64,000 nucleotides of DNA from Paracoccaceae bacterium (GTDB taxonomy: Bacteria; Pseudomonadota; Alphaproteobacteria; Rhodobacterales; Rhodobacteraceae). Under the pieces are notes generated by a model. The model searched no databases, was not told where the DNA came from, and was given only the letters and a program-made list of their open reading frames with translations. The stretch spans positions 124,001 to 188,000 of the forward strand of contig JAIOYF010000004.1 in assembly GCA_021741245.1 (NCBI GenBank). The letters are read 5' to 3'. Each line of letters opens with the position of its first letter. Position 1 is the stretch's first letter. Shown here piece by piece: positions 25,759 through 45,608 of this stretch. The position numbers were made by a program, and so were the translations under genes.

Positions 25759-27327
25759 TCAGTTTCCGGCCAAGGATCGGGCAAGCAAAAAGCCTGATCC
25801 TGCCCCAGTTCCAGCACCGGGCCAGACGGCGGCCCCGGTCAGATAAAGGCCCTTTACAGGCGTGGTTCCATCGGCATGCCCGCGCGCGGGGCGGAACATA
25901 AAATGCTGGCTCAGGTGGTGGCTGCCACAGATTTGATCACCGCCCACCAGATTTGGATTGTCGGCCTCAAGTGCTGCAGGGCTGACGACATGCCGGGCAA
26001 GGATCTTGGCCCTTGTGCCGGGGGCATAGCGCTCCAGAATATCCAGCGCGCGTTCGGCAAAGGGCTCTGCGGCCTCGGCCCAGTTGGTGGCCGTGATCGC
26101 GCCCTTGGCGTCGCCCAAAATGGTGCCCGGTGCCATTCGCACCTGCACCCACAGCACATGCTTGCCCGCAGGCGCGCGACTTGGGTCAAAGACGGTGGGT
26201 TGGCCGACCACTAGGATCGGCTCATCTGGCAAAAGCCCTGCGCGGGCCTGCTGATAGGTGCGCGCCATCTGGTCAAGGCTGGGCGCAAGATGCACGTATG
26301 CGTGGGTTTTCAACGCCTCACCCGCGGCCCAATCCGGCAGGCTGTCCATCGCCAGATGGATCATCATCGTCCCCGGCGCATGGGTGAAATCTGCCATTGC
26401 ACGGTCAAACTTGGGCGTGATCGCCCCGGTGAGTGCGGCCAAGGCAGAAGGCGAGGTTCCGGCGATAACTGCTTTATTCGCCGCTATTTTTCTTCCATCA
26501 ATCAGCTCGATCCCAGTGGCCGATCCGGCCGAACGGATGATGCGCGCCACTGGGGCATTACACTCCACAACCCCGCCGCGCGCCCGGATCGCCGCGACCA
26601 AGGCGCGGGTCACGGTATCGGCCCCGCCTTGGCCAAGGACCATGCCAAAAGCCTGACCCGCCATCCCCTCCAGATAGGGAAACAGCCCACCTCCGGCGAT
26701 ATCAGGGGCATAGTCCAGATGCATCCCCCAAGCCCCCAGCATGGCCTGCACCTTTGGCGAACGAAAGGTCTGGCCCAGCCAATCGCGCGGGGATTGCAGC
26801 AAGAAGCGGCCCAGATCCATGGTGCCCGCAAGCCCTTGCTTGCGCAGCGTCGTGAACAAGAAAGAACCAAGCGACCGCGCCCGCATCGGGCTGCCCAAAA
26901 GGCCAAAGATCGCCTCGGCGCGGGTCGGAAAATCTGCCAGCAATCGCCCCCAGATCTGGGCATCTTCGGGCGAATGCCGGGCGATATTTGCCGTGGTTTC
27001 GGCAAGATCGGTTGACACCCCACACCAGCTGCCATCGGGAAAGGCACTGGCAAAGGGGCGGTTTACGGGCACAAAGCCAAGGCCGTGTTTTGTAAGCTCA
27101 GCCCCATGTGTTTTCATGAAAGCAGAGCCTGCAAACAGCGACAGGTTCATCGCCGCCCAGTCATGCCGAAATCCGGGCAAGGTATAGTCCCCGGACTTGA
27201 CGGCCCCGCCCGGTTCCGCCGCCTGTTCAAACACTCCGACCGACCAGCCCCGCGCAGACAGGTGCAGGGCGCAGGCCAACGCATTGTGACCGGCCCCGAT
27301 GAAGACTGCGTCGAAATGGTCAGCCAT
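25759..27327 (-). CDS. FAD-dependent oxidoreductase, phytoene-desaturase-like
   Basis: A 522-residue flavoprotein. The N-terminal dinucleotide motif is FIGAGHNALACALHLSARG, followed by the FEQAAEPGGAVKS segment typical of phytoene-dehydrogenase/amine-oxidase folds; the C-terminus has GLYLTGAAVWPGAGTGAGSG, the second FAD-contact motif. No carotenoid gene is nearby. It is first in the minus-strand operon with the Dpp-type importer and divergent from isatin hydrolase. A paralogue (28277-29830) follows isatin hydrolase on the other side. I infer that the pair oxidises an indolic or side-chain substrate; the actual reaction is unknown. Confidence 0.8.
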   Translation of the reverse strand: MADHFDAVFIGAGHNALACALHLSARGWSVGVFEQAAEPGGAVKSGDYTLPGFRHDWAAMNLSLFAGSAFMKTHGAELTKHGLGFVPVNRPFASAFPDGSWCGVSTDLAETTANIARHSPEDAQIWGRLLADFPTRAEAIFGLLGSPMRARSLGSFLFTTLRKQGLAGTMDLGRFLLQSPRDWLGQTFRSPKVQAMLGAWGMHLDYAPDIAGGGLFPYLEGMAGQAFGMVLGQGGADTVTRALVAAIRARGGVVECNAPVARIIRSAGSATGIELIDGRKIAANKAVIAGTSPSALAALTGAITPKFDRAMADFTHAPGTMMIHLAMDSLPDWAAGEALKTHAYVHLAPSLDQMARTYQQARAGLLPDEPILVVGQPTVFDPSRAPAGKHVLWVQVRMAPGTILGDAKGAITATNWAEAAEPFAERALDILERYAPGTRAKILARHVVSPAALEADNPNLVGGDQICGSHHLSQHFMFRPARGHADGTTPVKGLYLTGAAVWPGAGTGAGSGFLLARSLAGN

Positions 27328-27482
27328 TCTTTCCCCCGTTGACGCAAGGATATTTGCAAACGCATATAATTATGTCTAGCATGATTCTGCATCCGATGGG
27401 CCACAATCGCCAGATAGATGGTGGCTTGGGCTGGGTCAGAAAGAACAGGCTCCGACGCGAGTGGGGCAAGACAGGGAGAGTG
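27328..27482. promoter_or_regulatory. Divergent promoter region of the isatin island
   Basis: The 155-bp gap separates the minus-strand flavoprotein/importer operon from the plus-strand isatin hydrolase operon and must hold promoters for both. An AT-rich patch at 27350-27380 includes TATAAT at 27365-27370 on the plus strand and the inverted pair GCAA/TTGC (27345-27358). No strong operator palindrome was identified. The MarR encoded at 29827 is the obvious candidate regulator. Confidence 0.5.
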
Positions 27483-28277
27483 ATGATGTCGTCTGAAAAT
27501 GTGCTGTCGCAACTGGCCGGTATGTTGGCCAGCGGGGGGATCGAGGTCGTGGATTGCACGGGCGTGCTTGGCCCCGAGACGCCGCTGCTGAAGTTGCCCC
27601 CGGATTTCGCCAAAGACACCCCACCGATCAAGATTCACAGGATCAGCGAATATGATCAAGATGGGCCGTTCTGGGCATGGAACTGGCTGGAACTGGGCGA
27701 GCATAGCGGCACCCACTTTGATGCGCCGCATCACTGGATCACCGGCAAGGATTACGCCGATGGTTATACCGACACCTTGCCGGTGCAGCGGTTGGTGGCC
27801 CCTGTCAATGTTCTCGACTTCAGTGCCGAATGTGGCGCCGACCCGGATTTCTTGCTGACCATCGACCATGTCAAGGCATGGGAGGCCAAGCACGGGGCGA
27901 TCAACGCGGGCGAGTGGGTGGTTCTGCGCAGCGATTGGGATTCCCGCGCCCATGACGAAGGGCTGTTCCTGAACGCCAATGAAACCGGTCCCCACACGCC
28001 CGGCCCAACCGCCGAGGTGATCAAGTACCTGCTGGACAAAGGCATCGTTGGCTGGGGCAGCCAGTGCATCGGCACCGATGCGGGGCAGGCGGGGGGCATG
28101 GACCCACCGTTCCCGGCCCATAACCTGCTGCATAAGCACAATTGCTATGGCCTCGCCAGTCTTGCCAATCTTGACAAGCTGCCCGCCAAGGGGGCGATCT
28201 TGATCGCAGCACCGCTCAAGATCAAAAGTGGCACGGGTTCCCCGATCCGCGCCTTGGCTCTTGTGCCGAGGGGCTGA
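27483..28277 (+). CDS. Isatin hydrolase (cyclase family, Mn-dependent)
   Basis: A 264-residue member of the cyclase/kynurenine-formamidase-like family. The metal site HSGTHFDAPHHW gives His74, His78 and Asp80, with His84 nearby. The rest (VVDCTGVLGPETP, RISEYDQDGPF, GWGSQCIGTDAGQAGG, FPAHNLLHKHNCYGLASL) matches, as I recall it, isatin hydrolase of Labrenzia aggregata far better than the shorter KynB formamidases of about 210 residues. The enzyme opens the lactam of isatin to isatinate (2-aminophenylglyoxylate), a step in bacterial indole-3-acetate breakdown. The start at 27483 follows GGGAGAG; ATG at 27486 is an alternative. It overlaps the next gene by 1 bp. Confidence 0.88.
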   Translation: MMSSENVLSQLAGMLASGGIEVVDCTGVLGPETPLLKLPPDFAKDTPPIKIHRISEYDQDGPFWAWNWLELGEHSGTHFDAPHHWITGKDYADGYTDTLPVQRLVAPVNVLDFSAECGADPDFLLTIDHVKAWEAKHGAINAGEWVVLRSDWDSRAHDEGLFLNANETGPHTPGPTAEVIKYLLDKGIVGWGSQCIGTDAGQAGGMDPPFPAHNLLHKHNCYGLASLANLDKLPAKGAILIAAPLKIKSGTGSPIRALALVPRG

Positions 28278-29830
28278 TGGTTGACCACGTCATCATCGGG
28301 TCAGGGATCAACGGGTTGGTTGCGGCCAGCCTGTTGGCGTTGAAGGGCCGCAAGGTTCTGGTGCTGGAGCGCGAGGGCGAGGCGGGGGGCTGTATGCGCA
28401 GCCGCCCGCTTTACCCCGGCTTTGTGCATGACCCGTTGGCGGCGACTTTTGTGTTGTTCATGACCTCGCCTGCGGGGGCCGCACTTGGGCCCCATTTGGC
28501 GCGGCATGGGTTTGAGTATTGCCACAGCCCGCATCCAACAGCCGTGCTGCGCCCCAATGGCGAGGCTTTGGTGCTGACCATGGATCAGGCTGAAAACATC
28601 CGTCGCCTCAACGCCTTGTCGGCAGGGGATGGCGATGCACATGCCGCTGTGGTGCAGGGCATCGCGGCGGATGCGCCGTTTTTGTTCGCGCTTTTGGGCA
28701 ACCCTGCCTGGGATTGGAAGATGGCCCGCCTGATGTTTGCTCAGGTGCGCCAGCGCGGTTTGCGTGGCCTTGCCGCGTGGTTTGGGCAGGCGCTTGCACC
28801 CGCGCGCGGCTGGCTGGAGGGCGATTTCAAACACCCGACGGTGCAGGCGCTTTTTGCGCCATGGGTGCTGCACACCGGCCTTGGGCCCGAGGCCGCCTAT
28901 TCGGCGCAGATGGGCAAGGTCATCGCCTTTGCGTTGGAGGCTGCAGGTGCGCCGATTGCCAAGGGCGGTGCCGGCGCTGCGGCGCAGGCTTTTGTGCGGT
29001 TGATCGAGGAACAGGGCGGCGAGGTGCGGCTGAACACCGATGTTGACCGCATCTTGGTGCAGGGCAAACAGGTCACCGGCGTTCGGTTGACCGACGGCTC
29101 TGACATCGCTTGCGCCTCGGTGCTGGCCTCGGTCACGCCGTCGCAGCTTTACGGGCGGATGCTGCAGGGGGATGCGCCAGCGCAAGACCGCGCAGCGGCG
29201 ACAAGGTTCCGCCATGGGCGCGGCAATTTCCAACTGCATTATGCGCTGGATGCGGTGCCGGAATGGCTGTCACCGGGGCTGGAGCAGGTGGCGCTGATCC
29301 ATCTGGCGGATGGGGTGGATTCTGTCTCACGCTCGGTGAATGAGGCAGAGCGGGGCTTGTTGCCTGCGGTGCCCACGATCTGTGTGGGCCAACCATCGGT
29401 GCTGGACCCCAGCCGCTGCCCAGCGGGCAAGGCCGTGCTGTGGCTGCAAATCCCGGATGCGCCGCGCATCATCAAAGGCGATGCGGCGGGTGAGATTACC
29501 GCGACGGATTGGGGCGCGGCCGCCGAGGCCTTTGCCGACCGGATCGAGGCCATTCTGTGCTGTCATATCAAGGATTTCAAATCGCTGGTGCTGAACCGCA
29601 CCGCCTATTCGCCCCAAGATCTCAACCGGATGAACATCAACCTTGAAGGCGGTGATCCCTATGGCGGGGCCTGCACTCTTGATCAGTTTTTTATCTGGCG
29701 GCCCTTTGCCCATTCGACCAATGGCACGAGCGAGATCAAAGGCTTGATCCATATCGGGGCCAGCACCCATCCGGGGCCGGGGCTTGGTGGCGGATCGGGC
29801 TTTAACGCAGCAAAAAGGTTGGGCGCATGA
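28277..29830 (+). CDS. FAD-dependent oxidoreductase, phytoene-desaturase-like (paralogue of 25759-27327)
   Basis: A 517-residue flavoprotein with N-terminal VIIGSGINGLVAASLLALKG and LEREGEAGGCMRS, and the C-terminal FAD motif GLIHIGASTHPGPGLGGGSG. Both ends and the overall layout parallel the enzyme at 25759-27327; the shared N-L-x-G-G-D segment and HxxRP/WRPxxH-like region near the C-terminus support a paralogous pair. It is encoded between isatin hydrolase (1-bp overlap) and a MarR gene (4-bp overlap), so it very probably belongs to the same pathway. Candidate roles are oxidation of an indole, oxindole or dioxindole intermediate towards isatin; none can be read from the sequence. Confidence 0.8.
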   Translation: MVDHVIIGSGINGLVAASLLALKGRKVLVLEREGEAGGCMRSRPLYPGFVHDPLAATFVLFMTSPAGAALGPHLARHGFEYCHSPHPTAVLRPNGEALVLTMDQAENIRRLNALSAGDGDAHAAVVQGIAADAPFLFALLGNPAWDWKMARLMFAQVRQRGLRGLAAWFGQALAPARGWLEGDFKHPTVQALFAPWVLHTGLGPEAAYSAQMGKVIAFALEAAGAPIAKGGAGAAAQAFVRLIEEQGGEVRLNTDVDRILVQGKQVTGVRLTDGSDIACASVLASVTPSQLYGRMLQGDAPAQDRAAATRFRHGRGNFQLHYALDAVPEWLSPGLEQVALIHLADGVDSVSRSVNEAERGLLPAVPTICVGQPSVLDPSRCPAGKAVLWLQIPDAPRIIKGDAAGEITATDWGAAAEAFADRIEAILCCHIKDFKSLVLNRTAYSPQDLNRMNINLEGGDPYGGACTLDQFFIWRPFAHSTNGTSEIKGLIHIGASTHPGPGLGGGSGFNAAKRLGA

Positions 29831-30300
29831 ACGACGAATCCGCGCCGCCGTCCCCACGTTTGGGTGAAATTGGCCTGACCAATTTTGCCCCCTACCTTAT
29901 GAACCGGATCATGGGGCGCTATAACGCGTCCTTGCGCGATGATATGGGCGACATGGGCCTGACCACCCCCAAGATGCGCGCCCTTGCCGTTCTTTCGGTT
30001 GTTGAGGGCCCGCTGATCCGCGAATTGGCTGTTTACACGGTGACGGAACAATCGACCCTGAGCCGTGCGTTGGACCAGTTGCAGACCGAGGGCCTGATCC
30101 GGCGCGAGGCAGACAGTGCCGACAGCCGCGCCGTGCGGGTGCGGATTACCGATGCGGGCCGTGCGGCCTTTGACCGGTTGTGGCCGCATATGGCGGCGGC
30201 GCAGGCACGCATGTTTCGCGGCATTCCCGAAGATGAGCGCCGCGCCTTTGTAACCACGCTTCAAAAGATGCTGACAAACATCAGAAAGCACGAGATTTGA
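29827..30300 (+). CDS. MarR-family transcriptional regulator (isatin operon)
   Basis: A 157-residue winged-helix protein: recognition region TVTEQSTLSRALDQLQTEGLI followed by the wing RREADSADSRAVRVRITDAG, the MarR consensus. It is encoded inside the isatin hydrolase operon (ATGA overlap with the flavoprotein gene; next gene starts 1 bp after its stop). A ligand such as isatin, isatinate, 2-aminobenzoate or its CoA ester is plausible by analogy with other MarR regulators of aromatic catabolism, several of which respond to CoA thioesters. Confidence 0.85.
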   Translation: MNDESAPPSPRLGEIGLTNFAPYLMNRIMGRYNASLRDDMGDMGLTTPKMRALAVLSVVEGPLIRELAVYTVTEQSTLSRALDQLQTEGLIRREADSADSRAVRVRITDAGRAAFDRLWPHMAAAQARMFRGIPEDERRAFVTTLQKMLTNIRKHEI

Positions 30301-30301
30301 T

Positions 30302-32440
30302 ATGGCGGAACGTTCCTTCAAAGCAGAAGTCGAAGACCTGCGCAAAGGCGAAGGGGACACCTTTACGGGTGAGGGAATTCTGGCCATCACCAAGGCGCTG
30401 TTGGAAAACGGCGTGGGCTATGTGGGTGGCTATCAGGGCGCGCCGATCAGCCATTTGATGGATGTTCTGGCCGATGCCCAAGACCTGCTGGGCGAACTTG
30501 GCGTGCGGTTCGAGGCCAATGCCAACGAGGCGGCGGCGGCGGCAATGCTGGCAGCATCGGTGCATTATCCCATTCGTGGGGCCGTCACCTTCAAGGGCCC
30601 GGTGGGGGTGAACGTCGCCTCGGACGCGCTGGCCAACCTTGCGTCCTCGGGGGTGACAGGGGGTGCGCTGATCGTGTTGGGCGAGGATTACGGCGAAGGC
30701 TCTTCCATCATGCAAGAGCGCAGCCACGCCTTTGCGATGAAATCACAATTTTGGCTGCTGGACCCGCGCCCGAACCTGCCGTCCATCGTAAAGGCCGTGG
30801 GGGATGGGTTTGCCCTGTCCGAGGCCAGCAACTCCCCCGTGATGCTGACCATGCGCATCCGGTCGTGCCATGTGACGGGCAGTTTTGCCACGCGCAACAA
30901 TGTGGCCCCGCCCTTGTCGGTGCGCGACGCGCTGTCAAACCCGCGCTCGGATTTTGCCCGCGTGGTCTTGCCGCCGATGTCTTATGTGCATGAGCAAGAC
31001 AAGGTAAAGAACCGTTGGCCTGCGGCAGAGAAGTTCATTCAAGGCAACCGTTTGAATGAGATGTTTGGCACGGGCGGGCGGATTGGCATTGTCTGTCAGG
31101 GCGGCATGTATAACGGGGTCATCCGTGCGCTTCAGCGCCTTGGACTGGCCGATATCTATGGCGAGACGCAGATCCCGATCTATTGCCTGAATGTGACCTA
31201 TCCGTTGATCGCCAAAGAGTTTCTGTGCTTTGCCGAAGGGAAAGGGTCGATCCTTGTCGTGGAAGAGGGTCAGCCGGAGTTTATCGAACAAACGTTGTCG
31301 ACCTATCTTTACCGCGCGGGGGCTTCGGTCAAGTTGTATGGCAAAGGCGTCTTCCCGATGGCAGGTGAATATACCGGGGCGGTGATGCTGGAAGCGGTCG
31401 AGGGGTTCTTGCGGGCCGCTGCGCCCGAGATGCTGCCCGCCGCCGTGCGCGCGCCCAATCAAGACCGCCCGGCGATCCCGGACCTGACCAAGGCCGTGCC
31501 GATCCGTCCACCCGGCTTTTGCACGGGCTGCCCGGAGCGACCCATCTTTGCCGCGATGAAACTTGTGCAACAGGATCTGGGCAAGCATCAGATCAGCGCC
31601 GACATCGGCTGCCATCTGTTCGGCTCTTTGCCGCCCTTTGAAATCGGGGGGGCGACCATGGGCTATGGTTTGGGCCCTGCGGGCAACGGGGCTTTTGATG
31701 GGGGCGGGGAAAAACGCCCGATCTCTATCATCGGGGATGGCGGGTTCTGGCATTCGGGCCTGTCGTCGTCGATGACCAATATGGTGTTCAACAAATCCGA
31801 TGGCGTTGTGATGGTGGTGGACAATTACTATTCCGCTGCCACGGGGGGACAAGATGTCATGTCCTCACGCGCCGAGAATGCGACCAAGGCCACAAACCAT
31901 CCGATTTCGCAGGCGATGAAGGGCATCGGCATCAACTGGGTTCGGCAGGTGGATCGCACCTATGATGTGCCACAGTTGCGCAAAATCTTGCATGAGGCGC
32001 TGACCACCAAGGAAGAGGGGCCAAAGGTCATCATTGCCTCGTCCGAATGCATGCTGAACAAGCAGCGCCGTGAAAAGCCGTTGCGGGCGGCGGCGATCAA
32101 AGAGGGTCGGCGGGTCGAGGCGCCGCGCTTTGGCGTGGATGAGGCGATCTGCACCGGCGATCACGCCTGTATCCGTCTGTCGGGCTGCCCATCCTTGTCT
32201 TTGAAACGGTTGGATGATCCGTTGCGGGATGATCCTGTGGCCAGCATCGACCAATCTTGTGTCGGCTGCGGCAACTGCGGCGAGGTGGCGGATGCCGCCG
32301 TGCTGTGCCCCAGCTTTTACCGCGCCGATGTGGTGCACAATCCGGGCCGGTTTGAGGCGTGGTGGGCCCAAAAGCGGGCGCAGGCCATTGCGTGGCTTGT
32401 GGCCCGACGGGCGGCCAAAAGGTTGGAGTTTTCGGCATGA
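30302..32440 (+). CDS. iorA: Indolepyruvate:ferredoxin oxidoreductase-type alpha subunit (candidate isatinate oxidoreductase)
   Basis: A 712-residue thiamine-diphosphate enzyme of the IorA type. Order: pyrimidine-binding domain (GGYQGAPISHLMDVL, EANANEAAAAAMLAAS), transketolase-C-like linker, PP-binding domain (PGFCTGCPERP; IIGDGGFWHSG with the Mg/ThDP GDG motif; VVMVVDNYYSAATGGQ) and a C-terminal Fe-S segment with cysteines in CTGDHACIRLSGCPS and CVGCGNCGEVA...CP. Such enzymes convert an aryl-2-oxoacid plus CoA to the acyl-CoA, CO2 and reduced ferredoxin. Isatinate, made by the hydrolase three genes upstream, is exactly an aryl-2-oxoacid, so the product would be 2-aminobenzoyl-CoA. Indolepyruvate is the textbook substrate and remains possible. 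The iorB stop/start overlap (ATGA) ties the subunits. Confidence 0.82.
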   Translation: MAERSFKAEVEDLRKGEGDTFTGEGILAITKALLENGVGYVGGYQGAPISHLMDVLADAQDLLGELGVRFEANANEAAAAAMLAASVHYPIRGAVTFKGPVGVNVASDALANLASSGVTGGALIVLGEDYGEGSSIMQERSHAFAMKSQFWLLDPRPNLPSIVKAVGDGFALSEASNSPVMLTMRIRSCHVTGSFATRNNVAPPLSVRDALSNPRSDFARVVLPPMSYVHEQDKVKNRWPAAEKFIQGNRLNEMFGTGGRIGIVCQGGMYNGVIRALQRLGLADIYGETQIPIYCLNVTYPLIAKEFLCFAEGKGSILVVEEGQPEFIEQTLSTYLYRAGASVKLYGKGVFPMAGEYTGAVMLEAVEGFLRAAAPEMLPAAVRAPNQDRPAIPDLTKAVPIRPPGFCTGCPERPIFAAMKLVQQDLGKHQISADIGCHLFGSLPPFEIGGATMGYGLGPAGNGAFDGGGEKRPISIIGDGGFWHSGLSSSMTNMVFNKSDGVVMVVDNYYSAATGGQDVMSSRAENATKATNHPISQAMKGIGINWVRQVDRTYDVPQLRKILHEALTTKEEGPKVIIASSECMLNKQRREKPLRAAAIKEGRRVEAPRFGVDEAICTGDHACIRLSGCPSLSLKRLDDPLRDDPVASIDQSCVGCGNCGEVADAAVLCPSFYRADVVHNPGRFEAWWAQKRAQAIAWLVARRAAKRLEFSA

Positions 32441-33981
32441 CCATCCATGAAGTGCTAGAGCCGCGCCCCGTTGATCCGGCGCTTGGCGGCATCATAAAGC
32501 TGGCTGTGCTGGCCGTGGGCGGGCAGGGCGGGGGCGTTCTGACCGGCTGGATCGAGGCTTTGGCGCGGGCGAATGGCTATGCCTGTCAGGCCACCTCGGT
32601 CGCGGGTGTGGCGCAACGCACCGGGGCCACGGTCTATTACGTCGAGATGTCGCCGCAGACTGACAAGATGCCGATCTTTTCGCTGATGCCCGCGGCGGGG
32701 GATGTGGACATCCTGATCGCCGCCGAGATGATGGAGGCGGGCCGGTCGATCATTCGCGGCTTTGTCACGCCGGATCGTACGACCCTGATCGCGTCGACCC
32801 ACCGCGCACTTGCGGTCAGCGAAAAGATGGTGCCGGGGGATGGCATCGCCTCATCCGCCGAGGTGATTGCCGCAGCCGAGGTGGCGTCGCGGCGCTTTAT
32901 CGCGGCGGATTTTGACGCGGTGGCGGTGGGGGTCGGTTCAGTGATCTCGGCCACCTTGTTCGGCGCGCTGGCCGCGAGTGAGGCCTTGCCGTTTTCGCGC
33001 GTGGCCTATGAACAGGCGATCCGCGCCGGGGGCAAGGGGGTGGAGCCCAGTCTTCGGGCCTTTGCGGCAGGGTATGAGGCCGCATTGGCGGGTGGTGAGC
33101 CGCCGCAGGCCATGGGGGCGGCAGTTCCCCCGCAAGATCAAATGCCGCGCGGACCGCAGCGGTTGGTTCAGGATTGGCAGGGACTTTGCGCGCGGGCGGC
33201 GGCCCTGCCGGCCCCGGCTGTCGATATGGCCTTGGCAGGTCTGCGCAAGGTGGTGGAGTTTCAAGACACCGCCTATGGTCAGCTTTATCTGGAGCGGCTG
33301 GAGGCCGTGGCCGCCCGTGACAGAGCCCCCTTTGATCTGACGCGTGAAGGGGCGAAATACATCGCCAACGCTATGGCCTATGATGACGTGATCCGCGTGG
33401 CGGACCTCAAGACGCGGGGCAGCCGCTTTGTTCGCATTCGCGGTGAGATGGGGGTCAAGGACGGCAATGTGATGCAGGTGACCGAGTTTATGCATCCCCG
33501 CGCCGAAGAGATCGCAGGCATGTTGCCCGCCCGGCTTGGGGCGCGGATCGAGGCCGATCCGAAATGGATGGCGCGGCTGGATCGCTGGTTCAACAAGGGG
33601 CGGCGTTTGCGGACCGATGGCCTGGTGGCCTATGCGACGCTGTATGTCTTGGGTGGGTTGAAGCGCTGGCGGCTGCGCAGCCTGCGGCACAGCCATGAGG
33701 TGGCGCATCTTGAGGCGTGGTTGACCCGCGCCGTAGGCCATCTGGACAGGGATTATGCCTTGTCGGTGGAGGTCATTCGCTGCCGTCGTCTGGTCAAGGG
33801 CTATTCTGATACCCATGCGCGGGGTCTGTCAAAATTTGACCGTGTTCTGGCAGGCATCGAACTGGTCGCAGGCCGCGACGATGCCGCTGATTGGGCCCGT
33901 CGCCTGCGCGAGGCTGCCTTGATGGATGAAGAGGGCAAGGCGCTGGACGGTGCTTTGGCCACGATCCGCAGTTTTGCCTGA
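32437..33981 (+). CDS. iorB: Indolepyruvate:ferredoxin oxidoreductase-type beta subunit
   Basis: A 514-residue protein. The N-terminal third is the 2-oxoacid:ferredoxin oxidoreductase gamma-type domain (AVLAVGGQGGGVLTGWIEALA, GVAQRTGATVYYVEM), which in the family handles CoA binding; the long C-terminal part is the extra domain of the bacterial two-subunit IorB. The start at 32437 overlaps the alpha gene by 4 bp; an earlier in-frame start at 32359 lies within iorA. It is the last gene of the isatin hydrolase operon. A GCCCGCGCC/GGCGCGGGC hairpin without a T run (33991-34024) fills the gap to the convergent kynureninase-like gene. Confidence 0.8.
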   Translation: MTIHEVLEPRPVDPALGGIIKLAVLAVGGQGGGVLTGWIEALARANGYACQATSVAGVAQRTGATVYYVEMSPQTDKMPIFSLMPAAGDVDILIAAEMMEAGRSIIRGFVTPDRTTLIASTHRALAVSEKMVPGDGIASSAEVIAAAEVASRRFIAADFDAVAVGVGSVISATLFGALAASEALPFSRVAYEQAIRAGGKGVEPSLRAFAAGYEAALAGGEPPQAMGAAVPPQDQMPRGPQRLVQDWQGLCARAAALPAPAVDMALAGLRKVVEFQDTAYGQLYLERLEAVAARDRAPFDLTREGAKYIANAMAYDDVIRVADLKTRGSRFVRIRGEMGVKDGNVMQVTEFMHPRAEEIAGMLPARLGARIEADPKWMARLDRWFNKGRRLRTDGLVAYATLYVLGGLKRWRLRSLRHSHEVAHLEAWLTRAVGHLDRDYALSVEVIRCRRLVKGYSDTHARGLSKFDRVLAGIELVAGRDDAADWARRLREAALMDEEGKALDGALATIRSFA

Positions 33982-36363: not shown

Positions 36364-36364
36364 C

Positions 36365-37706: not shown

Positions 37707-39992
37707 ATGAGAATCCTATGCCTTGGCGGTGGCCCTGCGGGCCTGTATTTCGCGATATCGATGAAGCTGCGCGATCCGGGACATGAGGTCGTGGTTCTGG
37801 AACGCAACCGCGCCAATGATACCTTTGGCTGGGGCGTTGTGCTGTCGAATGACACGCTGGAAAAACTGGCGGCGAATGATCCGGTCAGCGCGGCCACGAT
37901 CCGCGAAAACTTTGCCTATTGGGATGACATTGCCGTCATCCATGCGGGGGTGCGGACCGTTTCCGGCGGGCATGGGTTCGCTGGGATCGGGCGCAAGACG
38001 CTGTTGGTTTTGCTGCAAGAACGCGCGCGCGCCCTTGGGGTCGATCTGCGCTTTGAAACCGAATTCAAGACCGCAGAAGAATACCGTCAGGACTATGATC
38101 TGGTTGTGGCCTGCGATGGCATCAACTCTTCCGTGCGGCGCGAATATGAGGATGTGTTCAAGCCAAATGTCGATACGCGCCTGTGCAAATTCGTCTGGCT
38201 GGGCACGCATCAAAAGTTTGACGACGCTTTCACCTTTATCTTCGAGAAGACGGCGCATGGCTGGGTTTGGGCCCATGCCTATCAATTTGATGACACCACT
38301 GCGACCTTCATCGTCGAATGCACACAGGCGACGTGGGATGCTTGGGGCTTTGACGCGATGACCAAGGAAGAGACGGTGGAAACCTGCCGTCAGATCTTTG
38401 CCAGCCACCTTGGCGGGCATGAATTGATGTCAAATGCCGCGCACCTGCGTGGGTCGGCTGTGTGGATGAACTTCCCCCGCGTGATCTGTGAAACATGGTA
38501 TCACGAGAATGTCGTCTTGATGGGCGACTCTGCGGCGACGGCGCATTTTTCTATCGGGTCTGGCACGCGACTGGCCTTGGAAAGCGCGATGGCTTTGGCG
38601 GATTACGTGCAAAGCGAAGACAGCCTCGCGGCGGCCTTTGTGCGCTATCAAGACGAGCGGCGTCTGGAGGTGTTGCGCCTGCAATCCGCTGCCCGTAACT
38701 CTTTGGAATGGTTCGAAGAGGTGGAGCGGTATCTGGACATGCCGCCACAGCAGTTCGCCTATTCCTTGCTGACACGCAGCCAGCGGATCAGCCATGAAAA
38801 CCTGCGTCTGCGCGACGGGGCCTGGCTTGCCGGGGCCGAGGATTGGTTTGCCGCCCGCTCGGGTGGGCAGGTTGGGCAAAAGCCCATGTTCACCCCGTTT
38901 CGTCTGGGGGAGATGGCCTTGCATAACCGCATCGTCGTCAGCCCGATGGCACAGTACAAGGCGGTGGATGGTTGCCCGACGGATTGGCATTTTGTCCATT
39001 ACGCCGAACGCGCCAAGGGCGGGGCAGGGCTGGTCTATACGGAAATGACCTGTGTATCCCCCGAGGGGCGGATCACGCCGGGCTGTCCGGGGCTGTACGA
39101 TCCGGCGCATGAGGCTGCTTGGCGTCGGCTGACCGATTTCGTCCATGCCGAGACACAGGCCAAGATCTGCTGCCAGATCGGCCATTCGGGGCGCAAAGGC
39201 TCTACCCAACTGGGGTGGGAGGTGATGGACGCGCCCTTGGCTCAGGGGAATTGGCCACTGCTCAGCGCCAGCGCTGTGCCATGGTCGGGCAACAATGCTG
39301 CGCCAAAGGCGATGGACCGGGCCGATATGGATCGGGTGCGCGATGAATTCGTGAAGGCCACGGAAATGGCCGTGCGCGCGGGCTTTGACATGATCGAAAT
39401 GCATGCCGCCCATGGCTATCTGATCTCCAGCTTTATCAGCCCTGTGTCGAACCAACGCGACGATGCCTATGGCGGATCGCTGGAAAACCGCATGCGCTAT
39501 CCGCTGGAGGTGTTTGCCGCGATGCGGGCCGCATGGCCTGCCCAAAAGCCGATGTCGGTGCGGATCTCGGCCAATGACTGGGTTGGGGCAAAGGGTGTGA
39601 CCCCGGCAGAGGCGGTGGAGATCGCGCGCCTGTTCGCGCAGGCCGGGGCAGATGTGATTGACGTGAGTGCAGGCCAGACCAGCACCCTTGCGCGGCCTGT
39701 TTACGGGCGGATGTTCCAGACGCCGTTTAGCGACCGCATCCGCAATGAGGTGGGTATCGCCACCATGGCGGTTGGCAATATCACCGAAGAAGACCACGCC
39801 AATTCCATCCTTTTGGCCGGGCGGGCGGATCTTGTCTGCCTTGCGCGTCCACATCTGGCCGACCCTTACTGGACCTTGCACGCGGCCATCCGCCAAGGGG
39901 ACCAGACCGTGCAATGGCCGCTGCCCTATGAGGCCGGAAGGGATCAGGCGCAGCGCTTGGCCGACCGTGCACAGGAGGTGATCCGTGCCTGA
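37707..39992 (+). CDS. 2-aminobenzoyl-CoA monooxygenase/reductase (annotated elsewhere as salicylyl-CoA 5-hydroxylase/oxidoreductase)
   Basis: A 761-residue fusion. Residues 1-385 are a group-A flavin monooxygenase ([12 protein letters not shown], and [17 protein letters not shown] as the FAD/DG-type motif). Residues 393-761 are an old-yellow-enzyme FMN reductase ([45 protein letters not shown]). This architecture is that of the enzyme described from Azoarcus evansii, which hydroxylates and reduces 2-aminobenzoyl-CoA to a non-aromatic 2-amino-5-oxocyclohexene-carboxyl-CoA. The ATG at 37707 follows GACAGGAG. It heads the plus-strand operon that ends with the CoA ligase, and lies beside beta-oxidation genes, which supports this over salicylyl-CoA hydroxylation. 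Confidence 0.87.
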
Positions 39993-40734
39993 AGGCTTTG
40001 CTGGCAAACGGGTGCTGATCACCGGGGGCGGCACGGGCGTGGGGGCCGACATGGCGCGCCACTTTGCCCAAGCCGGGGCCGAGGTGGTGATTGCCGGACG
40101 GCGGATGGAAGCATTGGCCGCCGTTGTGCGTGAAACGGAAGGGATCAGGGCGATTCAAGCCGATGTGACAGACGAAGCCTCGGTTGCCGATCTTTTCGCA
40201 CAGGCGGGCCCTTGTGACATTGTCATTGCCAATGCAGGGGCGGCAGACTCCGCGCCCTTTGGGAAGATGACGTTGTCGCATTGGAACACGATGATTGCGG
40301 TCAATCTGACCGGCACCTTCCTGACCTTTCGCGAGGCTTTGGGGCAGATGCCCGCCACGGGGGGGCGGCTGATTGCCATCGCCTCGGTCGCGGGTTTGCG
40401 CGGCTATCCCTATATCGCGGCCTATGCGGCGGCCAAGCATGGGGTGGTGGGTCTTGTCCGCGCTCTTGGCGATGAGGTGGCGACCAAAGCCATCACCGTC
40501 AACGCGATCTGCCCGGGCTATCTGGACACCGAGATGACCGACCGCTCGATTGCCAATATCTGTGCCAAGACCGGCAAATCCGCCGTTGAGGCCCGCGCCG
40601 TTCTGGAAGCCGCCTCACCGCAAAAGCGGCTGTTTGATCCGGCCGAGGTGAGCGCAACCGCGCTTTGGCTGGCAAGTACGGCCGCGTGTGGTGTCAACGG
40701 CCAGACCATCACCATTTCCGGGGGCAGCCCATGA
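39985..40734 (+). CDS. Short-chain dehydrogenase/reductase
   Basis: A 249-residue SDR: cofactor motif [17 protein letters not shown] motif [11 protein letters not shown], catalytic Ser in IAIASVAG, Tyr/Lys in YAAAKHG, and the C-terminal CPGYLDTEM. It starts with GTG at 39985, overlapping the monooxygenase/reductase gene by 8 bp, and overlaps the MarR gene by 4 bp. In this operon it probably oxidises or reduces the alicyclic keto/hydroxy intermediate; which step is unknown. Confidence 0.84.
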
Positions 40735-41165
40735 GTGACCAATCCAAACGCCGCCTCAAGATGTGGATCCGTCTGCTTGGCGTCACCCGTGCCACCGAAA
40801 ATCACCTGCGCGAACATCTGCGGATCAATCATGCCACCACCTTGCCCCGCTTTGACGTCATGGCGGCCCTGTGGCGTAGGCGCGATGGTGTGACGATGAG
40901 TGAGTTGAGCCGGATGTTGCTGGTCTCGAACGGCAATGCAACGGCTGTGGTGGATCGTCTGGAAAAGGACGGTTTCGTGGCGCGCCGCCCATCGGAAACG
41001 GACCGTAGGACGGTTTATGTGGCCCTGACGGATGCCGGTTTGCAGGAGTTCGAGGGCCTTGCCGCCGGACATGAGCGAGAAGTTGATCGTCTGTTTGCAG
41101 AGGTCAGCGAGGCAGATCTGGATCAATTGACCGATATTCTAAAGCGTATGGGGGGGATCGCATGA
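40731..41165 (+). CDS. MarR-family transcriptional regulator (2-aminobenzoyl-CoA operon)
   Basis: A 144-residue MarR protein with [13 protein letters not shown], the recognition helix [19 protein letters not shown] and wing [19 protein letters not shown]. The ATG at 40731 overlaps the SDR stop, and the end overlaps the next start (ATGA at 41162-41165). It is distinct from the MarR of the isatin operon; the palindrome at 37646-37663 in front of this operon is its likely site. Confidence 0.86.
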
Positions 41166-41974
41166 CCCAAATGGCAGGGCTTTCGCCCCAGCATTTCTTG
41201 TGGGAGGTGACGGACCGCGTTGCGGTCATTCGTCTGAACCGCCCTGATCGCAAGAACCCGCTGACCTTTGAGTCCTATGCGGAGTTGCGCGACACCTTTC
41301 GCGCGCTGCCCTATGCGACGGATGTTGATGTGGTGGTCTTTGCCTCCAACGGCGGAAACTTCTGTTCCGGCGGCGATGTGCACGAGATCATCGGCCCGCT
41401 GATTGGCCTGCCGATGAAGGACTTGCTGGCCTTTACCCGCATGACGGGGGATTTGGTCAAGGCGATGATCGCCTGCACCAAACCGATCATCGCCGCCGTG
41501 GATGGTGTGGCGGTAGGGGCGGGGGCGATCATCGCCATGGCCTCTGACCTGCGGGTGGCAACACCGGCCGCAAAATGCGCCTTTTTGTTTACCCGCGTGG
41601 GTCTGGCGGGCTGTGACATGGGGGCCTGTGCCATGCTGCCGCGCATCATCGGGCAGGGGCGGGCGGCGGAACTGCTATACACCGGCCGGGTGATGCGGGC
41701 CGAAGAGGGGCAGGCCTGGGGCTTTTGGAACGCCCTGCACCCGGCAGAGGCGCTTGAGGCCGAGGCGATGGCGCTGGCGCGGCGGCTTGCCGCGGGACCG
41801 ACCTTTGCCCATGGTGTGACCAAGACGCAATTGGCGCAGGAATGGGACATGGGACTGGAGCAGGCGATCGAGGCCGAGGCGCAGGCACAGGCGATCTGCA
41901 TGCAGACCCGCGATTTTGAGCGGGCCTATCGTGCCTTTGTCGCCAAGGAACAACCGGTGTTTGAGGGTGACTGA
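41162..41974 (+). CDS. Crotonase-family protein lacking the classical catalytic glutamates
   Basis: A 270-residue crotonase-fold protein. The oxyanion-hole segments are present ([10 protein letters not shown] and [15 protein letters not shown]), but the two Glu positions of enoyl-CoA hydratases are replaced: GGGLE... reads GAGAI..., and the ...PE... position reads ...TR.... A nearby Asp152 ([11 protein letters not shown]) may serve instead. It may therefore act as a ring hydrolase, isomerase or specialised hydratase on the dearomatised 2-aminobenzoyl-CoA product rather than as a simple enoyl-CoA hydratase. It is fourth gene of the monooxygenase/reductase operon and ends before a hairpin repeat. 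Confidence 0.8.
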
Positions 41975-41983
41975 CGCAGTAAA

Positions 41984-42048: not shown

Positions 42049-42051
42049 ACC

Positions 42052-43185
42052 ATGCCCGACCACAGCTTTCTGACCTGGCCCTTTTTTGAGGATCGCCACC
42101 GTGCCTTGGCCGAAGGGCTGGAGGAATGGTGTGGCACGCATCTGCCGGTGGATCATGGCGATGTGGACGCGGCCTGCCGGGTGCTTGTGTCGGGTTTGGG
42201 CGCGGCGGGCTGGCTGCGCCATACAGGGGCGGATGCAGGCGAGCGATTGGATGTGCGCAGCCTGTGCCTGAGCCGTGAGATTTTGGCGCGACATGACGGT
42301 CTGGCTGATTTTTCCTTTGCCATGCAGGGGCTTGGTATGGGGGCGATCAGCCTCTTTGGCCGTGCGGAGCAGCGTGAATGGCTGGCGCGGACCCGGTCAG
42401 GTCAGGCGATTTCCGGCTTTGCGTTGACTGAGCCTGCCTCTGGATCGGATGTGGCGGCAACGGCCACAACGGCTGTGGCAGAGGCGGGGGGCTGGCGGCT
42501 TGACGGAGAAAAGACCTGGATTTCAAACGGCGGCATTGCGGATGTCTACGTGGTCTTTGCCCGCACGGGCGAGGCGCCGGGGGCCAAGGGATTGTCGGCC
42601 TTTGTGTTGCCAGCCGATACTGCGGGATTGACGGTGGAGGAGCGCCTTGAGGTCATCGCCCCGCATCCCCTTGCCCGGTTGCGGCTGCAGGGGGTTCGTC
42701 TGCCGCAATCGGCGCTGATCGGACGGGCGGGCGAGGGGTTCAAGATTGCGATGTCGGTGCTCGATGTGTTCCGCGCCACTGTCGGGGCGGCGGCCCTTGG
42801 CTTTGCGCGCCGGGCCTTGGATGAGGCGCTGGACCGTGTGAAAGCCCGGCGTATTCAAGGGGCTGCCTTGGCGGAGATGCAGATGGTGCAGGGGCATCTG
42901 GCGGATATGGCCCTCAAGATCGATGCCGCGGCACTGCTGATTTATCGGGCGGCCTGGACCAAGGATCAAGGCGCGGCGCGGATCAGTCGTGAGGCCGCAA
43001 TGGCCAAGCTTTATGCTACGGAAGCCGCGCAGGAGGTGATCGACATAGCCCTGCAACTGCATGGTGGCGACGGCGTTCGGCATGGGTCAGTGGTGGAAAG
43101 CCTGTACCGTGAAATCCGTGCCTTGCGCATCTATGAAGGGGCCAGCGACGTGCAGAAAATCATCATCGCGAGGAGCATCTTGTGA
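42052..43185 (+). CDS. Acyl-CoA dehydrogenase
   Basis: A 377-residue flavoprotein of the acyl-CoA dehydrogenase fold. FAD/substrate motifs [15 protein letters not shown] and [15 protein letters not shown]; the catalytic Glu is in [12 protein letters not shown]. It introduces the alpha,beta double bond in the lower pathway. The ATG at 42052 directly follows the repeat element; the upstream frame to 42010 has no better start. It overlaps the thioesterase start by 4 bp. Confidence 0.88.
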
Positions 43186-43595
43186 TTTATCGTCGCCACA
43201 TCCAGATCGAGTTCAATCATTGCGACCCGGCGGGCATCGTCTTTTACCCTCGATACTTCGAGATGACGAATTCGGTGGCCGAAAATTTCTTTCGCGAGGT
43301 CGCGGGCCAGTCCTATGCGGCGATGATGCGGGACCTTCAGGGCGTGCCGACCGCCCGGTTGGAAGCGGATTTTCATGCCCCCTCTCGCTTGGGCGAGGTG
43401 TTGGAGTGGCGTATGCAGCTGACACGACTTGGCCGCAGCTCCATCGATTTTGGCCTGCAGGCTTGGTGCGGCGATGAGCATCGGGTGACGGTTCGGCTTG
43501 TTCTGGTCTTTGTCGAAGGTCTTGGTGCGCCCAAACCTTGGCCCAATGACATGCGGGCTGCGATCACAGCATTTATGGAGGCACCTGATGCATGA
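43182..43595 (+). CDS. Hotdog-fold acyl-CoA thioesterase (4-hydroxybenzoyl-CoA thioesterase type)
   Basis: A 137-residue single hotdog domain; [20 protein letters not shown] carries the catalytic Asp of 4HBT/YbgC-like thioesterases. It starts with GTG overlapping the acyl-CoA dehydrogenase stop. It would release CoA from aryl- or alicyclic-CoA, perhaps as a safety valve against trapped 2-aminobenzoyl-CoA. It overlaps the RidA gene by 8 bp. Confidence 0.83.
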
Positions 43596-43989
43596 GGTCT
43601 TGCACCCCAGCAGTTGGAAAGCGGCCCGTGGCTACGCCAATGGCGTCGCGGCCGAAGGGCGAATGGTCTTTACCGGCGGCATGGTTGGCTGGACCGGTGA
43701 CTGTGAGTTTGAGACGGATGATTTTGTGGGGCAGGTCGAACAGGCGCTGCGCAACATCGTGGCCGTTCTGGCAGAGGCGGGGGCCCGCCCCGAGCACCTT
43801 GTGCGGCTGACATGGTATGTCACAGACAAGGCCGAATACCTGAGCAATCTGAAAGGCTTGGGCGCTGTTTACAAGGATGTGATCGGGCGCCACTATCCCG
43901 CAATGGCGTTGGTGCAGGTGGTGGCCTTGGTCGAGGATCGTGCCAAGGTGGAAATCGAAGCAACGGCCGTTGTGCCAAAGGAGGCGTGA
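43588..43989 (+). CDS. RidA-family (YjgF/YER057c/UK114) enamine/imine deaminase
   Basis: A 133-residue RidA-like protein (VFTGGMVGW, FVGQVEQALRNIVAVLAEAG, LVRLTWYVTDKAEYL, ALVQVVALVEDRAKVEIEATAV). RidA proteins hydrolyse enamines and imines. The ring product of the monooxygenase/reductase is an enamine, so this protein may remove the amino group as ammonia; this is inference from chemistry and operon position. The ATG at 43588 overlaps the thioesterase stop and its TGA overlaps the ligase ATG. Confidence 0.84.
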   Translation: MHEVLHPSSWKAARGYANGVAAEGRMVFTGGMVGWTGDCEFETDDFVGQVEQALRNIVAVLAEAGARPEHLVRLTWYVTDKAEYLSNLKGLGAVYKDVIGRHYPAMALVQVVALVEDRAKVEIEATAVVPKEA

Positions 43990-45608
43990 TGTTGGGACCG
44001 TCTGGCCATATCGACACATTCTCACGCGATCGCCTGCCTGCGCCGCAAGATTGGCCAGAGATCAATCTTGCCGGGTTTGATTATCCCGATTGGCTGAACG
44101 TGGCGGTGGAATTGACCGACAGAATGGTCGAACGGGGCTTTGGCGACCACACGGCATTGATCGGCAATGGGCGGCAGCGCACATACAAGGAACTGTCGGA
44201 CTGGACCAACCGGATAGCGCATGCGCTGGTTGAGGATTATGGCGTAAAGCCCGGAAATCGTGTGCTGATCCGGTCGGCGAACAACCCTGCCATGGTGGCC
44301 GCATGGCTGGCCGCGACCAAGGCGGGGGCAGTGGTGGTCAACACCATGCCGATGCTGCGGGCGGGGGAATTGACGGCGATCGTGGACAAGGCTGAAATCT
44401 CGCATGCCCTGTGCGACACCAGATTGATGGAGGATCTGGTCACCTGCGCCAAGGGATCGGCTTTTTTGAAAACCGTTATCGGCTTTGATGGCACCGCAAA
44501 TCACGATGCGGAACTGGATCGGGTGGCCCTGCGCAAATCAGTGCGCTTTACGCCGCCGCCGACGGGGCGGGATGATGTGGCCCTGCTTGGCTTTACCAGT
44601 GGAACCACGGGGGAGCCAAAGGCGACCATGCATTTCCACCGCGATTTGTTGATCATCGCGGATGGCTATGCGCGTGAGGTGCTGAATGTGACGCCCGACG
44701 ATGTTTTCGTGGGCAGCCCACCCCTTGCCTTTACCTTTGGTCTGGGGGGGCTTGCTGTGTTTCCGCTGCGGTTCGGGGCAGCGGCAGCCTTGCTGGAACA
44801 GGCCAGTCCGCCCAACCTTATCTCGATTATTCAAGAGCATAAGGCCACTGTGTGCTTCACCGCCCCCACCGCCTATCGCGTCATGCTGAAGGCCATGGAG
44901 GACGGGGCGGATCTGTCCTCCCTTCGTGCGGCGGTCAGTGCGGGCGAAACCCTTCCCGCGCCTGTCTATGACGACTGGATGGCCAAAACGGGCAAGCCGA
45001 TGCTTGATGGCATCGGCGCGACCGAGATGTTGCATATCTTTTTGACCAACCGCTTTGACGATCACCGTCCCGGATGCACGGGCCGCCCGGTCACGGGATA
45101 TGAGGCGCGGATCGTGGATGAGGCCGGTAAGGGCTTGGCACGCGGTGAGGTGGGTCGTTTGGCCGTGCGCGGGCCAACAGGGTGCCGCTATCTGGCCGAT
45201 GATCGGCAGAAGAAATACGTGCAAAACGGCTGGAACCTGACGGGGGACAGCTTTTGGCAAGATGAAGAGGGGCGTTTTCACTTTGCCGCCCGCTCCGATG
45301 ATATGATCATCAGTTCGGGGTATAACATCGCCGGGCCAGAGGTTGAGGCGGCGCTTTTGTCCCATCCGGCCGTTCTGGAATGCGCGGTGATTGGCGTGGC
45401 GCATGAGGAGCGCGGACAAATTGTTCAGGCCCATGTGGTACTTGCGGCAGGTTCTGAAGGGTCTGATATGATGGTCAAGGCGCTGCAAGATCATGTCAAA
45501 GCGGTGATCGCCCCCTATAAATATCCACGCTCGGTGGTCTTTATGTCCACCCTGCCCAAGACACAGACGGGCAAGATCCAACGCTTCATACTGCGTGACG
45601 CAAACTAG
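43989..45608 (+). CDS. abmG: 2-aminobenzoate-CoA ligase
   Basis: A 539-residue ANL ligase of the benzoate/2-aminobenzoate branch. A3 motif LGFTSGTTGEPKATMHFHRD near residue 198, A5 region GIGATEMLHIFLTNRFDD, A7/A8 LTGDSFWQDEEG and ARSDDMIISSGYNIAGPEVE, and the terminal lysine motif LPKTQTGKIQRF. It would activate anthranilate to 2-aminobenzoyl-CoA, the substrate of the monooxygenase/reductase encoded at the head of this operon; the same pair is known from Azoarcus evansii. It begins at ATG 43989, overlapping RidA by 1 bp, and is the last gene of the operon. Confidence 0.86.
   Translation: MLGPSGHIDTFSRDRLPAPQDWPEINLAGFDYPDWLNVAVELTDRMVERGFGDHTALIGNGRQRTYKELSDWTNRIAHALVEDYGVKPGNRVLIRSANNPAMVAAWLAATKAGAVVVNTMPMLRAGELTAIVDKAEISHALCDTRLMEDLVTCAKGSAFLKTVIGFDGTANHDAELDRVALRKSVRFTPPPTGRDDVALLGFTSGTTGEPKATMHFHRDLLIIADGYAREVLNVTPDDVFVGSPPLAFTFGLGGLAVFPLRFGAAAALLEQASPPNLISIIQEHKATVCFTAPTAYRVMLKAMEDGADLSSLRAAVSAGETLPAPVYDDWMAKTGKPMLDGIGATEMLHIFLTNRFDDHRPGCTGRPVTGYEARIVDEAGKGLARGEVGRLAVRGPTGCRYLADDRQKKYVQNGWNLTGDSFWQDEEGRFHFAARSDDMIISSGYNIAGPEVEAALLSHPAVLECAVIGVAHEERGQIVQAHVVLAAGSEGSDMMVKALQDHVKAVIAPYKYPRSVVFMSTLPKTQTGKIQRFILRDAN

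Follow-up and report, generated by a model that had tools for sequence, protein, structure and literature searches.

An isatin hydrolase island in a relative of Tabrizicola: two neighbouring regulons proposed to meet at 2-aminobenzoyl-CoA

For the breakdown of anthranilate by way of its CoA thioester, our point of comparison is the abm gene set of Azoarcus. The 2-aminobenzoyl-CoA pathway of anthranilate is also mentioned in the part of PMC6221969 that was covered. For indolic compounds, the closest described systems are the iad loci of Variovorax, Bradyrhizobium and Achromobacter, which carry a MarR gene, the IorA and IorB homologues iadA and iadB, and iadI, an amidase annotated as kynurenine formamidase; in the passages of PMC9613470 and PMC12633357 covered, isatin and isatinic acid are reported as intermediates and the pathway is reported to end at anthranilate. 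Here we describe a 64,000-nucleotide stretch of DNA (the window), bases 124001-188000 of contig C18 in a 4.2 Mb genome, in which an isatin hydrolase (IH) gene and a set of 2-aminobenzoyl-CoA genes adjoin each other in one island. The nearest named isatin hydrolase loci are those of Tabrizicola and other Rhodobacterales, and the source bacterium is a relative of Tabrizicola.

We put the probability at roughly 55% that this island consists of two neighbouring regulons that meet at 2-aminobenzoyl-CoA, with a direct step by the 2-oxoacid:ferredoxin oxidoreductase IorAB and a kynureninase-like lyase, KynUl. In the first regulon, assigned to the regulator MarR1, the OppABCDF importer would bring in a compound that the flavoenzymes FAD1 and FAD2 presumably convert to isatin; IH would hydrolyse isatin to isatinate (2-aminophenylglyoxylate, a 2-oxoacid), and IorAB, with CoA and ferredoxin, would decarboxylate isatinate oxidatively to 2-aminobenzoyl-CoA and CO2, bypassing anthranilate and its ligase. 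In the second, assigned to MarR2, the ligase would take anthranilate, mainly from the tryptophan/kynurenine path, to the same thioester, and a monooxygenase/reductase (ACMR) and beta-oxidation genes would burn both streams. KynUl, a pyridoxal phosphate (PLP) enzyme, would act as a retro-aldol lyase that splits dioxindolylalanine (oxidised tryptophan) into isatin and alanine. We infer the reactions of IorAB, KynUl, FAD1/FAD2 and the importer, the pairing of MarR proteins with operators and all other catalytic steps from gene families, operons, conserved operators, co-occurrence and a gene fusion that can be read in the sequences. No description of such an island, of an isatinate:ferredoxin oxidoreductase or of a fusion of KynUl to IH was found in the open-access literature, of which passages were covered, together with few subscription papers.

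Four adjoining operons, on the minus, plus, minus and plus strands, make up the island. A first-pass annotation of the window had drawn the same layout, and open reading frames, strands and profile matches bear it out, as they do the places of the enzymes it named, the isatin hydrolase among them, and of two MarR genes; its inventory omitted KynUl (34045-35169), FAD1/FAD2, a thioesterase and a Rid protein, and the dedicated importer that it announced does exist, at 20525-25709, just outside the range it gave. Operon 2 (plus strand, 27486-33981) is divergent from operon 1, and its genes, IH-FAD2-MarR1-IorA-IorB, overlap or touch:

27350..27371, plus strand: putative isatin-core operator ATATTTGCAAACGCATATAATT, recognised by the conserved 10-mer GATATTTGCA upstream of IH
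27486..28277, plus strand: IHB, isatin hydrolase of B type (486 bits to 4j0n)
28277..29830, plus strand: FAD2, paralogue of FAD1 (36% identity)
29827..30300, plus strand: MarR1, presumed repressor of the isatin core (family match; present at 67/70 loci)
30302..32440, plus strand: IorA, 2-oxoacid:ferredoxin oxidoreductase subunit, proposed isatinate oxidoreductase (TIGR03336, 270 bits)
32437..33981, plus strand: IorB, partner subunit of IorA, long form (NF006179, 671 bits; cut-off 348)

Over its full length the hydrolase matches isatin hydrolase B of Labrenzia aggregata, an enzyme of solved structure (4j0n, 4m8d); the metal motif is identical and there is no notable sequence difference, and we regard it as an orthologue of that enzyme. 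The motif, given as HxG[T/A]HxDxPxH in the part of PMC6117287 covered, is intact (HSGTHFDAPHH), and the protein is closer to the solved isatin hydrolases than to kynurenine formamidase, the two sequence marks by which an isatin hydrolase is told; its 31 bits to kynurenine formamidase, against 486 to isatin hydrolase, ruled out that identification.

To score co-occurrence, 246 genomes were drawn evenly from the larger family, at roughly one per genus, with kinship among them ignored in the statistics. Given that only the best first-look candidates were scored (four for ACMR and IorA in the family, three for IorA in the class, eight for KynUl and 18 for the ligase), an unmatched genome is not full proof of absence. 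Neighbours were counted at the 80 nearest named loci, under identity and length thresholds and only where a locus had enough flanking sequence. With types A and B divided at 65% identity, a split of our own, IH of either type is present in 48 of the 246 genomes: IHB in 39 and the A type alone in nine, A-type IH being present in 24 in all. IorA at a minimum of 60% identity accompanies both types; it occurs in 48/48 genomes with IH and 4/198 without (Fisher 8e-47), 52/246 in total. No more than 15 kb separate it from IHB in 34 of 39 genomes and from A-type IH in eight of 24, and it stands beside IH in 68 of the 70 named loci with enough sequence. Across the class, where 11 of 289 genomes have IH, IorA at 47% identity or more is found in all 11 as against 36/278 of those without. 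IH and IorAB are the factor common to all input settings seen in relatives.

Phenylglyoxylate:acceptor oxidoreductase converts an aryl-glyoxylate and CoA to the aroyl-CoA and CO2. This chemistry is our model for the proposed IorAB step, a likeness of chemistry and not of sequence, and the subunit make-up differs. IorA itself gives 270 bits to TIGR03336, the indolepyruvate alpha subunit, below the cut-off of 650.9; thiamine diphosphate (ThDP) and Fe-S motifs can be read by eye in its translation, and a PDB sequence search with it returned no match. Since IH yields isatinate, a 2-oxoacid, and IorAB is a CoA-acylating 2-oxoacid oxidoreductase, the simplest and best reading is that IorAB would oxidise isatinate directly, with CoA, to 2-aminobenzoyl-CoA and CO2 while ferredoxin is reduced. 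In one relative the two sets of genes are joined without the hydrolase: locus L102 (L102:2636-13566; genome G220, with no IH match) carries a single gene run MarR1-IorA-IorB-thioesterase-ACMR-SDR-MarR2-ECH-ACD-Rid, its ligase lying elsewhere. Co-occurrence, gene order and this locus support the link from isatin through isatinate and 2-aminobenzoyl-CoA to central metabolism that the first-pass annotation had put forward.

It is possible, if rather doubtful, that a different enzyme converts isatinate to anthranilate, which the ligase then activates, and that IorAB serves another 2-oxoacid such as indolepyruvate. The family name of IorA and its score to TIGR03336 would suit such a course, as would the presence of a ligase both in the window and in 75 of the 80 genomes tested for it, and a Variovorax construct, seemingly without iadAB, that makes anthranilate according to the passages of PMC12633357 and PMC9613470 covered. 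Against it stand the constancy of IorAB as a partner of IH (68/70 loci), the failure of IorA to reach the indolepyruvate cut-off, the IorAB genes of L102 that run into ACMR genes, and the lack of any decarboxylase or aldehyde dehydrogenase among the island genes, the other neighbours in relatives being annotated in part. If the direct IorAB step is correct, it would save the ATP spent on anthranilate activation and yield reduced ferredoxin, and it would supply a function for IorAB, which marks iad loci and is assigned no step in the passages of literature covered. PMC9613470, as far as covered, treats the IorAB subunits as markers of iad-like loci, and it is the only paper met in the open-access literature that brings isatin and indolepyruvate ferredoxin oxidoreductase together.

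The second half of the island comprises operon 3 (minus strand, 34045-37468; HADH-Thl-KynUl) and, divergent from it, operon 4 (plus strand, 37707-45608; ACMR-SDR-MarR2-ECH-ACD-thioesterase-Rid-ligase):

34045..35169, minus strand: KynUl, kynureninase-like PLP enzyme (TIGR01814, 79 bits; cut-off 246)
35188..36363, minus strand: thiolase (Thl), PcaF-like (NF006551, 552 bits, cut-off 605; TIGR01930, 383 bits, cut-off 240.6)
36365..37468, minus strand: HADH, 3-hydroxyacyl-CoA dehydrogenase (NF006124, 376 bits; cut-off 508)
37646..37663, no strand assigned: perfect palindrome AATTTCAAGCTTGAAATT between HADH and ACMR, presumed MarR2 operator
37707..39992, plus strand: ACMR, predicted 2-aminobenzoyl-CoA monooxygenase/reductase of two domains (NF006101, 1286 bits; cut-off 1078)
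39985..40734, plus strand: SDR dehydrogenase (family match)
40731..41165, plus strand: MarR2 regulator (family match)
41162..41974, plus strand: ECH, enoyl-CoA hydratase family protein (crotonase; NF006107, 480 bits, cut-off 330)
42052..43185, plus strand: ACD, acyl-CoA dehydrogenase (best match 246 bits, below equivalog cut-offs)
43182..43595, plus strand: YbgC/FadM-type thioesterase (TIGR00051, 40 bits; cut-off 68.7)
43588..43989, plus strand: Rid-family deaminase (TIGR00004, 58 bits, cut-off 106; start picked from the translation)
43989..45608, plus strand: putative 2-aminobenzoate-CoA ligase of the benzoate-CoA-ligase family (TIGR02262, 372 bits, cut-off 375; 2-aminobenzoate specificity is covered by no model used)

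ACMR joins a VioD-like domain (1-358 of the protein) to a domain resembling old yellow enzyme (OYE; about 393-741), and is thus the two-domain protein, FAD monooxygenase plus OYE, by which the abm pathway is recognised. NCBI names the model that it passes, NF006101, salicylyl-CoA 5-hydroxylase/oxidoreductase; the beta-oxidation neighbours and a palindrome linked to kynU favour 2-aminobenzoyl-CoA over salicylyl-CoA as the predicted substrate. With the abm-type pathway of Azoarcus evansii and Cupriavidus the island has in common, by family matches, the ligase, the two-domain monooxygenase/reductase and the beta-oxidation genes; it differs in that its 2-aminobenzoyl-CoA genes adjoin an isatin module and, in the window, KynUl.

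Across the family, ACMR was found in 89 of the 246 genomes (86 at 60% identity or more). It is present in 45/48 genomes with IH and 44/198 without (Fisher 1e-20), or 42/48 against 44/198 when three matches of 48-50% identity are dropped. The expectation of the first-pass annotation that the two halves co-occur in related genomes is borne out by these counts together with those for IorA (48/48 vs 4/198). Their physical union holds for the window, where the halves adjoin; elsewhere ACMR lies within 25 kb of IHB in 10 of 39 IHB genomes and near IH in 11 of the 53 named loci with 9 kb downstream, and the operators of the halves differ. The ACMR block accordingly often shares a genome with the isatin unit and sometimes lies beside it. 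A relative of the ligase is present in 75 of the 80 genomes tested for it (of 92, the 12 omitted having ACMR and no IorA of at least 60% identity); it was matched in 28/28 tested ACMR genomes without IorA, and not in G093, G125 and G229, in which IH, IorA and ACMR are all present, a contrast that counts in favour of the direct IorAB step.

Two distinct operators divide the island. Upstream of IH, an element of about 40 bases is conserved in the window and its near relatives, with GATATTTGCA in 62 and TATTTGCAAA in 59 of 72 regions, a set limited to those with a FAD1 or molybdenum-hydroxylase gene within 600 bases upstream. A variant of its core also appears in the molybdenum-hydroxylase loci displayed in the alignment, a permissive one that allowed 16 mismatches in 40 and took in 71 of the 72 regions (L033, with 17, fell outside); our conclusions rest on the exact 10-mer counts. 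The only match in the genome with fewer than three mismatches to this pattern is the site at 27351-27369; another match in the window, with three mismatches, falls inside oppA (25597-25615), and the second IH locus of the genome, L100, has no IHB operator above the score limit. Many relatives have the palindrome AATTTCAAGCTTGAAATT near ACMR when up to three mismatches are allowed; at that limit it was not found near ACMR in L091, L093, L098 and L102. Its only other site within three mismatches in the 4.2 Mb genome, at C18:250693-250710 (L120:12693-12710; three mismatches), lies six bases before the first ATG in the frame of canonical kynureninase (KynU), which precedes tryptophan 2,3-dioxygenase on the same strand; a control with the reversed pattern found no site in the genome. 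This hints that the ACMR genes and kynureninase share one anthranilate/kynurenine regulon. Because the palindrome recurs only upstream of kynureninase, the second half seems to be linked to anthranilate from kynurenine, with the first half under separate control; in the window's genome, the 2-aminobenzoyl-CoA half, whose genes have this palindrome in common with canonical kynureninase, would then primarily serve tryptophan breakdown as its anthranilate arm. A single regulon spanning both halves was rejected, since the operators differ and neither occurs before the other half within three mismatches. MarR1 and MarR2 are taken as the binders of these predicted operators from the positions of their genes.

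KynUl is nearest to the kynureninases both in sequence, where its 79 bits to TIGR01814 fail the cut-off of 246, and in fold, where cysteine desulfurases come close behind (a weak predicted model, pLDDT 69). It has in common with kynureninase the fold, the PLP lysine and an arginine that aligns with what is presumably the carboxylate-binding arginine; it differs in falling below the family cut-off, in having a conserved signature of its own and in being fused to IHB in some genomes. In kynureninase, a tyrosine before the PLP lysine matters for catalysis. This tyrosine is present in canonical KynU and in 1qz9, whereas KynUl has leucine (Leu203-Lys204), invariant in an alignment of seven sequences; alignments of fewer than 330 residues were left out of this comparison. 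The canonical KynU of the same genome (307 bits to TIGR01814) lies near tryptophan 2,3-dioxygenase at C18:248-251 kb, and for that reason KynUl was rejected as the genome's kynureninase. An unlikely variant makes KynUl a second kynureninase and IHB a formylkynurenine hydrolase, their fusion producing anthranilate from N-formylkynurenine for the ligase. The best matches of KynUl, close as the cysteine desulfurases are, and the recurrence at canonical kynU of the palindrome that heads its operon would agree with such a role; it is hard to square with the leucine before the PLP lysine, with a score of 79 against 307 for KynU and a cut-off of 246, or with the 486 bits of IHB to isatin hydrolase against 31 to formamidase, and it leaves the bond between IH and IorAB unexplained.

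KynUl is present in 30 of the 246 genomes: 27 of the 39 with IHB, none of the nine with the A type alone and three of the 198 without IH. In one of these three, G139, a contig breaks off within FAD2, just where one would expect IH to follow. The association of KynUl with IHB persists among genomes with ACMR of at least 60% identity (24/35 vs 3/51). KynUl is fused to IHB or within 15 kb of it in 19 of 27 genomes, and never near A-type IH. In 11 of the 246 genomes, belonging to 11 genera, KynUl and IHB share one open frame, with their matches 85-118 bases apart. All eight of the 11 fusions that were read keep both active-site motifs, and their IH domains form one clade beside other IHB sequences (every sixth named IHB locus was taken, and fragments of fewer than 230 residues were dropped); 11 genera, intact motifs and a single clade led us to reject an assembly artefact. 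The fusion adjoins IorAB in L084 and L085 and is separated from it by one small gene in L106. The others are unlinked to IorAB, and the selected neighbours scanned by family around them include none in common.

Dioxindolylalanine is a known product of tryptophan oxidation. The sequences suggest that KynUl cleaves it to isatin and alanine and, because KynUl is fused to IHB in 11 genomes, that it hands the isatin to IH. The part of PMC13397446 covered reports the reverse direction, in which PLP enzymes couple the beta-carbon of alanine with isatin, and cites KynU as using a nucleophilic aminoacrylate; the proposed cleavage would also be the amino-acid counterpart of the removal of the acetyl chain from dioxindole-acetate in the iad pathway, as described in the part of PMC12633357 covered. 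If this is correct, dioxindolylalanine gains a dedicated catabolic enzyme, none having been met in the literature covered. Only tentatively do we go on to propose an undescribed route of Rhodobacterales for oxidised tryptophan through KynUl, IH and IorAB, in which IH and IorAB form a hub with at least four exchangeable inputs, namely KynUl, Opp with FAD1 and FAD2, a molybdenum hydroxylase and iad-type genes.

Several observations weigh against the two-regulon reading with its IorAB and KynUl steps. A looser identity limit for IorA adds seven genomes without IH (52-55% identity), bringing the total to 59 and those without IH to 11/198; across the class, IorA of at least 60% identity is found in only six of the 11 IH genomes (53-55% in the other five) as against 7/278. 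Three IH genomes (G013, G099 and G178) have no ACMR match among the best four candidates scored per genome. The lack of a ligase match in some genomes with IorAB (3/46 vs 0/28) concerns small numbers, with G093 in 870 contigs and 18 of 40 candidates scored in G125. KynUl is missing from 12 of the 39 IHB genomes and present in only six of the 48 named loci flanked by 9 kb on either side, its structure model is weak (pLDDT 69), and in the window its operon follows the palindrome that recurs at kynureninase, a setting that would fit a kynurenine enzyme as well. Finally, anthranilate reappears in a Variovorax strain lacking the locus once the region iadC-K2 is supplied, according to the passages of PMC12633357 and PMC9613470 covered; judging from the gene numbers, iadA and iadB appear to lie outside this region, so that isatinate could reach anthranilate in Variovorax without IorAB.

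Operon 1 (minus strand, 20525-27327) contributes FAD1 and the importer genes OppABCDF, which are conserved beside IH in relatives:

20525..24044, minus strand: OppF, OppD, OppC and OppB of a peptide/nickel-type ABC importer (OppB and OppC from NCBIfam matches below equivalog cut-offs; OppD and OppF named from ABC motifs in the translation only)
24186..25709, minus strand: OppA, substrate-binding protein of the Opp importer (family match, and presence in the IH loci of relatives)
25759..27327, minus strand: FAD1, flavoenzyme of CrtI/amine-oxidase fold (CrtO and TIGR02734 matches, below cut-off)

The paralogous FAD1 and FAD2, 36% identical, have the carotenoid-desaturase/amine-oxidase fold; the fold was tested on FAD1, for which Foldseek ranked 4rep and 4dgk best, followed by 3ka7 and nicotine oxidoreductase, a result that points to the general fold only. 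From the neighbour counts at the 80 nearest named loci, Opp-FAD1/IH-FAD2-MarR1-IorAB is a tight unit: OppA is present at 54 of the 64 IH loci with at least 3.5 kb upstream, FAD1 at 58 of the 68 with at least 2.5 kb upstream, FAD2 at 62 of the 70 with at least 3.5 kb downstream and MarR1 at 67 of 70. Where FAD1 is absent or a remnant (10/68 loci), IH and IorA are kept in all ten. In five of 64 loci (L068, L052, L053, L078 and L033), a molybdenum hydroxylase divergent from IH takes the place of FAD1 and Opp; in L068 (L068:6205-9790) its three subunits could be named as large, 2Fe-2S and FAD, and it is a candidate indole or oxindole hydroxylase that would feed isatin. Relatives thus swap input modules around a core of IH and IorAB. 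In L027 and L044, truncated matches to FAD1, FAD2 and Opp surround IH-MarR1-IorAB, as if the input module had decayed while the core was kept.

The first-pass annotation had cast the island as a complete route for the breakdown of an indole-3-acetate-type compound, a model that now appears quite improbable. In its favour, iad loci carry IorAB homologues, a MarR gene and a formamidase-like amidase, likenesses to the island judged by family and not by sequence comparison, and isatin and isatinic acid are reported as their intermediates (PMC9613470 and PMC12633357, as far as covered). Beside IHB, by contrast, family matches reveal no Rieske oxygenase and no side-chain set of CoA ligase, thiolase and SDR: the IorA and IorB markers are there at the family level, whereas the IadCDE oxygenase, IadF ligase, IadG thiolase and IadH dehydrogenase have no counterparts, and Opp and two flavoenzymes are found instead. 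The claim of completeness is therefore not supported, with no island gene found that turns indole-3-acetate into isatin, and neither is the acetate label, the genes for which lie elsewhere with an IH of their own. The iad pathway, moreover, is reported to end at anthranilate, whereas the next genes in the island would use 2-aminobenzoyl-CoA. A genome-wide search for PF00848 found a single match, of 71 bits, on another contig. If the two-regulon reading is right, it would explain why 39 of 246 genomes keep IHB without acetate-entry genes beside it at the loci examined.

The iad-like genes of this genome form a second locus, L100 (L100:7912-18581; C18:20-31 kb), about 120 kb upstream of the island, with its own A-type IH (51% identical), two CoA ligases, OsmC, a thiolase, SDR-DUF35, an Asp/Glu racemase-like protein and a TRAP importer. 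A family scan of L100 found no Rieske oxygenase, and a protein first taken for a Rieske subunit proved to be DctM; the locus may import indole-acetate that is already oxidised. A-type IH lies in iad-like loci in other genomes as well (scans covered L100 and part of L091, with an SDR and a Rieske pair), and in L090 and L091 an iad-type locus with A-type IH abuts the ACMR operon, the Rieske pair having been checked in L091.

In the window, the island is followed directly by HupE/UreJ-like and UreC-like genes (47199-50010), as read from the translation.

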